Origin: Candidatus Zixiibacteriota bacterium
GTDB taxonomy: Bacteria > Zixibacteria > MSB-5A5 > JAABVY01 > JAHJOQ01
Assembly: GCA_018820315.1 (NCBI GenBank)
Contig: JAHJOQ010000030.1
Coordinates: 1-56,167 of the forward strand
Length of the DNA stretch: 56,167 bases
Direction of reading: 5' to 3'
Under the pieces are notes generated by a model that had not been told where the DNA came from, made no database searches, and saw nothing but the letters and a program-made list of their open reading frames with translations. Positions 13,730 to 18,330 of this stretch are shown here, in pieces. A program made the translations under genes and the position numbers. Positions within the stretch are counted from its first letter, which is position 1. Each line of letters begins with the position of its first letter.

Positions 13730-15475
13730 ATGAGCAAAAACTCGAATGATACATTAATCGATTCCCTGAAGCTGTTCGCGCAGACTGCGAAGATAATGAA
13801 TCGCACGCTCAATAAGGGCGAGCTGGTGGACATTGTCCTTGAGGAATCACGCGGTATTTCATCATGTCGCGCAGCTACACTGTTGCTGACGGGTCTCGAT
13901 CCGGCCCACAATGAATTCTACGCGTCCGCTGATCGAATGAAACGCCGTCTTGAGCTGCCTGCCGATTATCTGCCGCAACCGGGAGATGCGGGTTCGTTCG
14001 CTGAATTCGTCACAGTTCCCGAAGATGATCGTCTGCGGGCTGTTATTCGCGATCAGTTTGAGGTTGATGTCTCGACTCGTCTGCGGCTCACCCTGCGCAG
14101 CAGGGACTCGCATTTAGGTTTCGTGGATTTGTACGATCCTCAGGATCAGTCCGGATTGAGCCGGCATGTTTTCGAGGTACTCGCAGCTTTATCGGATTTG
14201 TTTGTGATCGCATGGGACAACGCCGAGTTGTATGAACAGATGCATCGGAAATCACTCCAGAATAAGCTCCTGCTGGACTCAACACAGATGCTGTCATCAT
14301 CAATTGAACTTGATGAAGTGCTTGAGAACATGATGATCGCTCTTAAGAAAGTCGTCGATTATGACGCGATCGGGATCTTTCTCGTGAAGAAAGAGACGAA
14401 CCGACTAGAGCCGCGCGTTTGGAGAGGATTCGATCAAAATGACAGCATGCATCGTCTTGGAACGAAGCTCGGTGAAGGTCTGGTCGGTTGGGTTGTCGAA
14501 CACGGAGTCGGTGTTTACGTTCCAGACACGCTGAAGGATAATCGCTACATAGAGGCGCGACCGGAGACACGGTCAGAACTCGTTGTGCCGATAAAGGCGG
14601 ATGATAAGATAATAGGCGCATTCAATGTCGAATCGGACCTGGTGGACCCATACTCCCAGGAAGATCTTGATTTCCTGACAGTCTTCGCCTCGCAGGCTGC
14701 AGTGTCAATCGAGCGAGCGCGAATGTACAGGCAAATCATGTTCAACCGGCAGTTTGAAGAGCAGTTGAATGTTGCGAGAATGATCCAGCAGACGTTCTTG
14801 CCGCGCAAGAATCCTACGGTCAAAGGGTTTGATATTGCCGGAAGGAACATTCCTTCGCAGAAGGTCGGCGGCGATTACTATGATTTTATCCAGATTGTTG
14901 ACAATCAGATAGGAATTGCCATCGCCGATGTATCCGGTAAAGGCATGCCGGCAGCTCTGATAATGGCAGCATTCAGGGCGTCACTCATCGCTGAGATACG
15001 AAATAACTATGCAATACGAACCATACTGCAGAAAGTGAATCGCTTGCTGCATGAGAGCATGGACGGCGGAAGCTTTGTTACGGCAGTCTATGGAGTTCTC
15101 GACTGCAAGAACAGGATTCTGACTTTCTCGAACGCAGGTCATAATCCGCCGATACTTCTGAGAAAGGACGGCACGTCTGAGGAGCTTGTGGAAGGTGGTC
15201 TGGCGCTCGGAATCCTCGATGACCGTGTATATGAGGAGCGGCCCGTATATGTCGGGTCGGGCGATCTAATTGTCCTTTTCACTGATGGTGTCAGCGAGGC
15301 TACTGCCGCAGACGGGGAGCAGTACGGTGAAAAACGGATTGTCGATAACCTGGTGGATAACCGTGAGAAGTCTGCGGAGGAGCTCGTGCAGCTGATAATA
15401 GACTCTGTGAACGAATTCTCTGCTGATGACTTTGTGCCGGATGATTTGACCCTCATCGTAGTCAAGGCATTGTAG
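13730..15475 (+). CDS. GAF-domain SpoIIE/RsbU-type protein phosphatase
   Basis: 581 residues. Two GAF-like sensing domains (roughly 20-160 and 180-325; the second contains GEGLVGWVVEHGVGVYVPDT) precede a linker helix with VARMIQQTFLPRK. A PP2C phosphatase domain follows, with metal motifs GGDYYDF, DVSGKGMPA and FTDGVSEA. Such proteins dephosphorylate anti-anti-sigma factors (STAS proteins) in partner-switching pathways. No STAS or anti-sigma gene is nearby, so its target lies elsewhere. It is 12 bases from the CPBP gene and probably in the same operon. No membrane segment, so cytosolic. Confidence 0.93.
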   Translation: MSKNSNDTLIDSLKLFAQTAKIMNRTLNKGELVDIVLEESRGISSCRAATLLLTGLDPAHNEFYASADRMKRRLELPADYLPQPGDAGSFAEFVTVPEDDRLRAVIRDQFEVDVSTRLRLTLRSRDSHLGFVDLYDPQDQSGLSRHVFEVLAALSDLFVIAWDNAELYEQMHRKSLQNKLLLDSTQMLSSSIELDEVLENMMIALKKVVDYDAIGIFLVKKETNRLEPRVWRGFDQNDSMHRLGTKLGEGLVGWVVEHGVGVYVPDTLKDNRYIEARPETRSELVVPIKADDKIIGAFNVESDLVDPYSQEDLDFLTVFASQAAVSIERARMYRQIMFNRQFEEQLNVARMIQQTFLPRKNPTVKGFDIAGRNIPSQKVGGDYYDFIQIVDNQIGIAIADVSGKGMPAALIMAAFRASLIAEIRNNYAIRTILQKVNRLLHESMDGGSFVTAVYGVLDCKNRILTFSNAGHNPPILLRKDGTSEELVEGGLALGILDDRVYEERPVYVGSGDLIVLFTDGVSEATAADGEQYGEKRIVDNLVDNREKSAEELVQLIIDSVNEFSADDFVPDDLTLIVVKAL

Positions 15476-15614: not shown

Positions 15615-16676
15615 ATGTTCGCAAAGCATTATGGGAAATTGACGATTATGATCGCATTTGGTCTTCTAATATTAGCACTATCCTGCGGCGATGATCCGCT
15701 GGAGCCCATTATTATTGAGTTGGGTGGTACGATGGTCGTGGCTCACGTGCCATCTTCCGACGCAATAACCATTGATGGCGTGCCTGACGCTACATGGGAC
15801 AGGGCCAAGAAATTCCAGATTGTCGCGAAGAGCTCAATCGGGAGCCCTACCGTAATCGATATGAAGGCTGCCACCGATTCGGCGTTTTTCTACATGCTTG
15901 TATCCTGGGAAGATCCCACACGGGATGTCGAGCCTGATCATTGGCTCTTTACAGACTCGACCGGTGGACATGTCATGACCGGCGGTCAGGATTTCTTTTT
16001 CATGGTGCTCGACGATGGAAGGAACGGCGATGTTGGCGGGGATTGCGCCCAGATGTGTCATACAGTTGAAGTACCTTCCGGTGATTCTACGACTACCGTG
16101 GATTCTATGCGCAATAGCGGCACGGGAATGGTTGATGCATGGATTTGGAGATCGGGACAAACCGATCCATCATCTGTTCTTGACGATATGCATTTTCTCG
16201 CTGGCGATATCGTCGGATTCGATCTCACCGTGTTGACTGATCCGATCTGGGGATGGAATATAGTAGACCCTGACTCCGTTCGCGATCCAGTTGCAATGCA
16301 CCGCGATTCTCTTTTCTACACCGGAGAGTTTCTTTATCGAGCAGATTCGGTCGAGTTTAAGGGCGGATTCAAGGGCCCGCAGGGTGAGGCGGTATTTTGG
16401 CCGTATCTCGCAACTGTGCCCGGATACGTAGTCGAAGGTTCTCCTCCCAATAATCCGGATGAGAGCTTGTGGGAAGTTGTCGCCAAAGGTGCATACGATG
16501 ACCTCGCAAACCGATGGACACTCGAGATCAGGCGTAAGATGAATACGGGTCACAGCGACGACATACCGTTTGTCCTTGGGGAGCGGCTTAATTGTTCGGC
16601 CGGCATCAAGAACAGCCCTGTCGGGAACTCTCCATACCCGCACTACGCTACCGAGCCGTTCGACATACAATTCTAA
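15615..16676 (+). CDS. Lipoprotein with ethylbenzene-dehydrogenase-like haem domain
   Basis: 353 residues. A signal peptide ends in LALSC, and Cys24 is the likely lipidated residue (the lipobox is not perfect). The mature part matches the style of the EB_dh/cytochrome c-552 type haem-binding beta-sandwich: ITIDGVPDATWDRAKKFQ at the start, SAFFYMLVSWEDPTRD, DGGRNGD-like DDGRNGDVGGDC, and late FVLGERLNCSAGIKNSP. It contains CAQMCH (144-149), a CX3CH variant of a haem c motif. The role is probably electron transfer or surface respiration at the periplasmic side. It ends at a strong terminator and has its own ribosome-binding site (AGGAGA), so it is likely a single-gene unit. Confidence 0.78.
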   Translation: MFAKHYGKLTIMIAFGLLILALSCGDDPLEPIIIELGGTMVVAHVPSSDAITIDGVPDATWDRAKKFQIVAKSSIGSPTVIDMKAATDSAFFYMLVSWEDPTRDVEPDHWLFTDSTGGHVMTGGQDFFFMVLDDGRNGDVGGDCAQMCHTVEVPSGDSTTTVDSMRNSGTGMVDAWIWRSGQTDPSSVLDDMHFLAGDIVGFDLTVLTDPIWGWNIVDPDSVRDPVAMHRDSLFYTGEFLYRADSVEFKGGFKGPQGEAVFWPYLATVPGYVVEGSPPNNPDESLWEVVAKGAYDDLANRWTLEIRRKMNTGHSDDIPFVLGERLNCSAGIKNSPVGNSPYPHYATEPFDIQF

Positions 16677-16854: not shown

Positions 16855-18330
16855 ATGGCCCTCAAGACATATGACGAGTATAAGGATTCGCTGAGGAAAA
16901 TGCGTCCAAATGTGCACAAGTTCGGTGAGCTGATCAATGATGTCACAACGCATCCAGCTACAAAGAGAACTGTAGAAGGACATGCTCAGATTTACAAACT
17001 GCAGCATGATCCGGATATGAAACACATGGTAACCGTGCAGTCCGACCTGATCGATGAACCGATCTCGCGATATCTCTCGATCATAAAATCCCCAGAGGAG
17101 CAAATCGCCAACTCGATGATGAAGAGACTTATGTTCCACACCACGGGGACATGCACCGGCGGGCGCTGTGCCGGTTGGACCGCCTTGAATGCAATGTACA
17201 TATCGACATTTGACATGGACAATGATCTTGGCACGGGCTATCATGATAGGCTCCTCACATGGCTGAATGACGCTCAGAAGCGCGATATTACGATCTCCGG
17301 CGCGCTAACCGATCCGAAGGGTGATCGCACGAAGAAACCGCACGAGCAGGAAGATCCCGACATGAACCTGCGCATTGTCGATAAGCGCGAAGATGGAATC
17401 GTCGTGCGCGGCGCGAAGGTAATGATATGTGGCATAGCAGCGGCCAACGAGGTCTTCATTCTGCCCGGCTCGGCATATAGAGATGAAGATAAAGACTATG
17501 CGATATCTTTCGTCATTCCGCGCGATATCGAGGGCCTGACGATTGTCGAGGCGAGGCATATTAGCGATGGACGAGAGGTTGAGGAGGAAGCAGGATTCGA
17601 TGCGCCGATAGATGGCGGTGGAATCACACAAGCTTACCTGTTTTTCGAAGATGTGTTCGTTCCTAACGAGCGGGTCTTCATGTGCGGGGAGGCCAGATAC
17701 ACGGGGCCGACCGTTGTGAATTTCATCCTGCCGTACAGATCGGCGATAGGCGGATGCGTAGCGGGGCAGGGGGATATCAAGATCGGTTCCGCACTATTGA
17801 CATCGAGAGCTGGTGGCCTTTCCGATAGAGTGTTCTCCGACAAAGTGACGAACATGATCATAAACAACGAGACGACATACTCAGTCGGCATTGCTGCCGC
17901 AGCACTCGGAAGGAAACATCCATCGGGAGCATGGCAGCCCGATCCGCTCCTCGCCAATGTGAACAAAGTGCATGTTGCAACACTGCCGTATGAGACTTCG
18001 CGTCTCGCGCAGGATATTGCCGGCGGAATCGGCGAGACCGGCTGCATGCCATCGGCGGTGGATTTCAACGATCCGAACTATGGTCACCTCGTCAGGAAAT
18101 ATCTGAAAGCGGCGAAATCGGCTGAATCCCGCGCGAAAGCTGCACGTATGGTAGAGTGGTCGACAATCGGCGCGGGAGTGCCGGGATGCATGCATGGTGG
18201 AGGATCGCCGGATGGTGCGAAGATGTTCGTAAGAATGTTCTACAACACCGAGAAGTCTGTTGAAATGGTGAAGCGCCTGGCAAAGATAGAAGAAGATATT
18301 CCCGATCCGGGGAAGAAACCGAAGAAGTAG
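16855..18330 (+). CDS. 4-hydroxybutyryl-CoA dehydratase/HpaB-family flavoprotein, divergent
   Basis: 491 residues, full length for the 4-hydroxybutyryl-CoA dehydratase (AbfD)/4-hydroxyphenylacetate hydroxylase family of FAD proteins. Known AbfD cluster ligands are Cys99, Cys103, His292 and Cys299. Here the aligned positions (offset +2 at both ends) are Thr101, Cys105, Tyr294 and Cys301, with an extra Cys100 beside Thr101. AbfD Tyr296 corresponds to Ile298 and Thr190 to Cys192. So the Fe-S site is altered or replaced, and the product should not be assumed to dehydrate 4-hydroxybutyryl-CoA. TAAGGAGGAACC before the ATG predicts strong translation. The alkyltransferase and M29 peptidase genes follow on the same strand. 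Confidence 0.85.
   Translation: MALKTYDEYKDSLRKMRPNVHKFGELINDVTTHPATKRTVEGHAQIYKLQHDPDMKHMVTVQSDLIDEPISRYLSIIKSPEEQIANSMMKRLMFHTTGTCTGGRCAGWTALNAMYISTFDMDNDLGTGYHDRLLTWLNDAQKRDITISGALTDPKGDRTKKPHEQEDPDMNLRIVDKREDGIVVRGAKVMICGIAAANEVFILPGSAYRDEDKDYAISFVIPRDIEGLTIVEARHISDGREVEEEAGFDAPIDGGGITQAYLFFEDVFVPNERVFMCGEARYTGPTVVNFILPYRSAIGGCVAGQGDIKIGSALLTSRAGGLSDRVFSDKVTNMIINNETTYSVGIAAAALGRKHPSGAWQPDPLLANVNKVHVATLPYETSRLAQDIAGGIGETGCMPSAVDFNDPNYGHLVRKYLKAAKSAESRAKAARMVEWSTIGAGVPGCMHGGGSPDGAKMFVRMFYNTEKSVEMVKRLAKIEEDIPDPGKKPKK

Follow-up and report, generated by a model that had tools for sequence, protein, structure and literature searches.

A conserved AbfD-family subfamily with tyrosine at the position of the histidine cluster ligand, in Zixibacteria and other phyla

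The window analysed here is the whole of a 56,167-nucleotide stretch from Candidatus Zixiibacteriota bacterium (assembly GCA_018820315.1, contig JAHJOQ010000030.1, forward strand). The genes relevant to this report are the following:

13730-15475, + strand: gene with GAF and SpoIIE-phosphatase domains, upstream of the next two (Pfam, neighbourhoods)
15615..16676, + strand: lipoprotein-like gene with an EB_dh (ethylbenzene-dehydrogenase) domain (Pfam, neighbourhoods)
16855..18330, + strand: AbfD-family coding sequence, 491 residues, PF11794 and PF03241, here called Tyr-type (ORF, Pfam, phmmer, structure model)

The reading frame at 16855-18330 (+) is uninterrupted over its 491 residues and is the only HpaB_N gene in the source genome. 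Its product matched the Pfam domains HpaB_N (270 bits) and HpaB (130 bits). A phmmer search against PDB chains returned Clostridium aminobutyricum AbfD (1u8v) as the top match, with 317.6 bits over the whole length; Nitrosopumilus 4HBD (6vjr) scored 292 bits and the HpaB monooxygenases less than 98 bits. The NCBIfam HpaB equivalog cut-offs were not reached (135.2 of 480.2 bits and 83.2 of 885.2 bits). An AlphaFold2 model of the product, with an alignment of 48 homologues as input, had a mean pLDDT of 92.5 and found its best PDB match in 1u8v (TM 0.94, rmsd 1.4). Domains, full-length match and the cysteine triad described below all place the protein in the AbfD/4HBD fold and cofactor family. 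The ORF product is a genuine AbfD/HpaB-family protein, and an earlier, sequence-only reading of this DNA, which had assigned it to the AbfD family, agrees in this with Pfam, phmmer and the match to the AbfD crystal structure.

We mapped residues onto AbfD using HMMER and MAFFT alignments, and counted conservation over 61 Tyr-type sequences and 65 His-type sequences. The cluster ligands of AbfD are Cys99, Cys103, Cys299 and, as the fourth, His292; Tyr296, Lys300, Glu257 and Glu455 are among its catalytic residues. The alignments gave the following positions (fractions refer to Tyr-type sequences unless stated):

17152..17154, + strand: Cys100, equivalent to AbfD Cys99, cluster ligand; Cys in 61/61
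17158..17160, + strand: Gly102, one-residue insertion column that turns CxxxC into CxxxxC
17167..17169, + strand: Cys105, equivalent to AbfD Cys103, cluster ligand; 61/61
17428..17430, + strand: Cys192, equivalent to AbfD Thr190; Cys 49/61, Ala 12/61
17629..17631, + strand: Gln259, equivalent to AbfD Glu257; Gln 54/61
17734..17736, + strand: Tyr294, equivalent to AbfD His292 (fourth ligand); Tyr 60/61, Glu 1/61
17746..17748, + strand: Ile298, equivalent to AbfD Tyr296; Ile 60/61
17755..17757, + strand: Cys301, equivalent to AbfD Cys299, cluster ligand; 61/61
17758..17760, + strand: Val302, equivalent to AbfD Lys300; Val 57/61, Met 4/61, Lys in 65/65 His-type
18043..18045, + strand: Cys397, clade-specific and invariant (61/61), in the loop GGIGETGCMPS; gap in AbfD
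18187..18189, + strand: Cys445, adjacent to the deletion in which AbfD Glu455 is lost; Cys 55/61

The sequence-only reading had applied a constant offset of +2 to AbfD, by which Cys99 became Thr101 and Cys100 was an added residue. Ahead of the cluster loop the offset is +1 (AbfD R71 is R72), and behind it +2, because one residue is inserted between the two cysteines of the loop (TGTC-TGG-RC in the Tyr-type clade, TASC-FQ-RC in AbfD). Both HMMER and MAFFT aligned Cys99 with the invariant Cys100, and position 101 is not fixed among the Tyr-type sequences (T 42, V 11, A 4, C 3, S 1), so that the supposed loss of a ligand was a register error. The extra residue at 102 is present in all 61 Tyr-type sequences and in none of the 65 His-type sequences, and the triad Cys100/Cys105/Cys301 is invariant in both sets (61/61 and 65/65). 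The other replacements proposed earlier were borne out by the alignments: Cys103 to Cys105, Cys299 to Cys301, His292 to Tyr294, Tyr296 to Ile298 and Thr190 to Cys192. No Tyr-type sequence has a histidine at the ligand position, which is His in 65/65 His-type sequences; position 298 is Met in the single Tyr-type sequence without Ile, and mainly Tyr in the His-type.

Four further changes had been overlooked: Lys300 to Val302, Glu257 to Gln259, the invariant Cys397, and the loss of Glu455 through a four-residue deletion (absent in 61/61). The residues that we used to recognise a 4-hydroxybutyryl-CoA dehydratase, His292, Tyr296, Lys300, Glu257 and Glu455, are all missing from the ORF product. Among 101 columns invariant in core AbfD, 37 are common to the Tyr-type, including most of the TDPKGDR segment, and 12 have switched to another conserved residue (among them 101, 188, 292, 296, 300 and several of 456-466). 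From this conservation, a [4Fe-4S] cluster held by three cysteines and changed at its fourth site appears likely, and loss of the cluster, which had been considered before, appears unlikely because the three ligand cysteines are kept in 61/61. The idea of a rewired iron-sulphur site with a new reaction thus stands in part: the histidine and most catalytic residues are replaced throughout the clade, but the three cysteine ligands are not.

Zixibacteria, Chloroflexota (Dehalococcoidia), Elusimicrobiota, Synergistota and Bacillota all yielded homologues with at least 54% identity, and an additional one lay on a Calditrichota-labelled fragment (L062). Extending the searches within the phyla of two further members added more sequences, among them a deep Synergistota subclade. 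Within Zixibacteria, 69 of 133 genomes had a match (44 of the 79 high-quality ones), always with at least 61% identity, which rules out a one-genome oddity or a pseudogene; no His-type AbfD was seen among these 133 genomes. Judged from the alignments, the residue pattern is not a product of chance, since it is fixed across five phyla. His-type paralogues coexist with the Tyr-type gene in some genomes of Dehalococcoidia, Synergistota and Bacillota.

A phylogeny of the subfamily had been named as a check on the sequence-only reading. A quick tree with 63 rows united all 29 Tyr rows and the one Glu row in a single Tyr-type clade (SH-aLRT 100), whose stem of about one change per site branches among His-type rows with the same cysteine triad; HpaB fell outside the group. 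HpaB joined L082 in this tree, possibly a long-branch artefact that leaves the Tyr-type clade unaffected. One change at the histidine position in a cluster-bearing ancestor would be the simplest history. The sequence with Glu instead of Tyr at 294 is the earliest-branching Tyr-type relative, L160 (G438). The searches also brought up other divergent relatives. Deep His-type sequences (L113-L116, L118, L119, L121, L122 and L138) keep the triad, lack the TES/Glu455 motif, and have HGGGSP and a His or Asp at the position of Glu257; with several paralogues per Dehalococcoidia genome, they make up another uncharacterised branch. The Thermoproteota relatives L082 and L083 keep the histidine but none of the three cysteines, which are replaced by M, A and Y.

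Genes for an acyl-CoA dehydrogenase and/or EtfBA adjoin the Tyr-type gene in all seven Chloroflexota loci. The order there is Tyr-type gene, acyl-CoA dehydrogenase, EtfB, EtfA, with the exception of one locus with the Etf genes only and one short contig with the dehydrogenase only. Both Elusimicrobiota loci have such partners in the opposite order, before the Tyr-type gene. In the Bacillota group, where L180-L188 stem from the search of the phylum of the L058 genome, an acyl-CoA dehydrogenase and/or EtfBA is adjacent in five loci. L058 and L061 have the dehydrogenase and EtfBA, and L058 also a PaaK-like CoA ligase; L183 and L185 have genes of a VorB/KorB/KorC-type 2-oxoacid:ferredoxin oxidoreductase directly before the Tyr-type gene (VorB above the NCBIfam cut-off) and the dehydrogenase and EtfBA after it; in L181, Etf, dehydrogenase and thiolase genes lie beside it. 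The adjacent gene encodes a butyryl-CoA:acetate-type CoA-transferase in L188 and a PaaK-like ligase in L180. Finally, genes of a POR-type 2-oxoacid:ferredoxin oxidoreductase adjoin in five Synergistota loci (L059, L190, L191, L193 and L194). Because gene orders differ between phyla, the association with acyl-CoA genes is more than inherited synteny. The neighbouring dehydrogenases of other phyla are 34-46% identical to that of Chloroflexota, and the partner may therefore not catalyse the same reaction everywhere.

No acyl-CoA dehydrogenase or Etf gene neighbours the Tyr-type gene in Zixibacteria, the lineage of the window itself, where the neighbours are the EB_dh lipoprotein, the GAF/SpoIIE phosphatase and a DNA methyltransferase. 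The source genome has several acyl-CoA dehydrogenases (the best with 40% identity), none of them near the Tyr-type gene; one pair lies in a cluster that by eye resembles carboxylase, thiolase and branched-chain aminotransferase genes. We recognised no gene of the 4-hydroxybutyrate pathway beside the Tyr-type gene in the loci examined. Several Zixibacteria loci have an EB_dh homologue a short way upstream of the Tyr-type gene; the lipoprotein is a conserved neighbour in part of this phylum and probably not part of the enzyme. It contains a CAQMCH (CxxxCH) motif, and a similar CMSMCH is found in the L037 reading frame. Many Zixibacteria loci, such as L034, L042, L197-L199, L202 and L203, also have the GAF/SpoIIE gene close to the Tyr-type gene.

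We propose, with a probability of roughly 0.6, that the Tyr-type protein would be a FAD enzyme with a three-cysteine [4Fe-4S] cluster altered at its fourth site, acting as an acyl-CoA lyase or isomerase and not as a 4-hydroxybutyryl-CoA dehydratase. It would bind FAD and hold the cluster through Cys100, Cys105 and Cys301. The iron that His292 holds in AbfD may here be bound by Tyr294 (or Cys397), or be open for the substrate, as it is in other site-differentiated clusters. IspG offers a precedent for an exchangeable oxygen ligand on the cluster, and the single Glu at 294 would fit such a ligand. That the substrate is an acyl-CoA is suggested by the recurrence, outside Zixibacteria, of dehydrogenase/EtfBA, oxidoreductase and CoA ligase or transferase neighbours; from these neighbourhoods, a ferredoxin oxidoreductase acting on a 2-oxoacid, or a CoA ligase or transferase acting on a carboxylate, may supply it. 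The flavin/cluster pair would then remove or move a group at a non-activated carbon, in tandem with the acyl-CoA dehydrogenase and EtfBA. Our leading guess for the substrate is an acyl-CoA, short or branched, that stems from 2-oxoacids of amino-acid origin. The new reaction foreseen by the earlier reading is supported in outline by neighbourhoods unlike those of 4-hydroxybutyrate metabolism. A bolder version, in which the clade constitutes a new AbfD-family class of flavin and three-cysteine [4Fe-4S] radical lyases or isomerases, with a Tyr/Glu-ligated or open iron and 2-oxoacid-derived acyl-CoA substrates, spread over several phyla of mostly uncultured anaerobes, is tentative and in our judgement somewhat doubtful.

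Alternatively, a cysteine could take the place of His292, giving an ordinary electron-transfer [4Fe-4S] cluster. The cysteine could be Cys397, which all 61 sequences have and AbfD lacks, or else Cys445 (55/61) or Cys192 (49/61) where present, and the recurring Etf neighbours are compatible with redox chemistry. Nevertheless, we consider this unlikely: none of these cysteines is better conserved than Tyr/Glu at 294, and Cys397 follows a Gly-Gly loop which in related flavoproteins is presumably near the flavin and not the cluster. The set Cys100/Cys105/Cys192/Cys301 suggested by the sequence-only reading does not hold for the clade, for Ala at 192 in 12/61 rules out Cys192 as a general fourth ligand, and five of these twelve sequences also lack a cysteine at both 297 and 445.

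It is also conceivable that the protein is a 4-hydroxybutyryl-CoA dehydratase after all. It scores best against 1u8v and 6vjr and has the 37 core columns in common with AbfD; against this, five functional residues (His292, Tyr296, Lys300, Glu257 and Glu455) are changed throughout the clade, and no 4-hydroxybutyrate-pathway gene was recognised next to it in the loci examined. Dehydration of 4-hydroxybutyryl-CoA would also be unlikely because true His-type AbfD paralogues coexist with the Tyr-type gene in some of the same genomes, and we hold this reading to be improbable. The slimmest chance is left to a protein that has lost its cluster and works as an HpaB-like flavin monooxygenase or a cluster-free flavoprotein. 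The family does include HpaB monooxygenases without these cysteines, and the fold is common to both (TM 0.84). However, the three ligand cysteines are kept without exception in five phyla, the clade sits among cluster-type sequences and far from HpaB, the HpaB score is far under its cut-off (135 of 480 bits), and the lineages with Tyr-type members are regarded as strict anaerobes.

AbfD is the textbook flavin/iron-sulphur radical dehydratase, in which His292 and the catalytic acids are thought essential. The Tyr-type clade is a natural experiment on how this chemistry is tuned, as the cluster cysteines were kept and the fourth ligand and acid-base residues were swapped together. Annotation by homology may call these genes 4-hydroxybutyryl-CoA dehydratase, leading to the false inference of GABA/succinate fermentation or of the 4-hydroxybutyrate carbon-fixation cycle. 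The Tyr-type can be separated from the His-type by a signature of CxxxxC, Tyr294, Ile298, Val302 and no Glu455. Such a signature is useful because 4HBD is treated as a key enzyme of the HP/HB cycle in a carbon-fixation study that also noted other roles in bacteria (PMC9802188). For the substrate, the recurrent neighbour genes provide a concrete lead.

We found no description of this subfamily in the literature searched; it is a real, conserved and uncharacterised subfamily of the AbfD family. With AbfD (1u8v) it has in common the fold (TM 0.94), 37% identity, the Cys99/103/299 triad, TDPKGDR, Arg293 and His458. It differs from AbfD in the replacement of His292 by Tyr, Tyr296 by Ile, Lys300 by Val, Glu257 by Gln and Thr190 by Cys, in the deletion of Glu455, in a CxxxC loop that is one residue longer, and in the additional Cys397. 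The 4HBD of Nitrosopumilus maritimus (6vjr) resembles it in fold (TM 0.93) and triad, but is His-type and has the AbfD catalytic residues compared here. HpaB 4-hydroxyphenylacetate 3-monooxygenase (e.g. 2yyi) belongs to the same superfamily, with the same Pfam domains and a TM of 0.84, but lacks the triad, and the Tyr-type scores far under the HpaB equivalog cut-offs. BbuA, the gamma-butyrobetainyl-CoA TMA-lyase, carries out a flavin-dependent C4 elimination on an acyl-CoA that is formally AbfD-like; it belongs to the acyl-CoA dehydrogenase family, with about 10% identity to 4HBD (PMC8364193), and is thus of another family and not a close sequence relative of the Tyr-type. Flavin C4 eliminations on acyl-CoA therefore exist beyond that of AbfD, in another protein family (PMC8364193).
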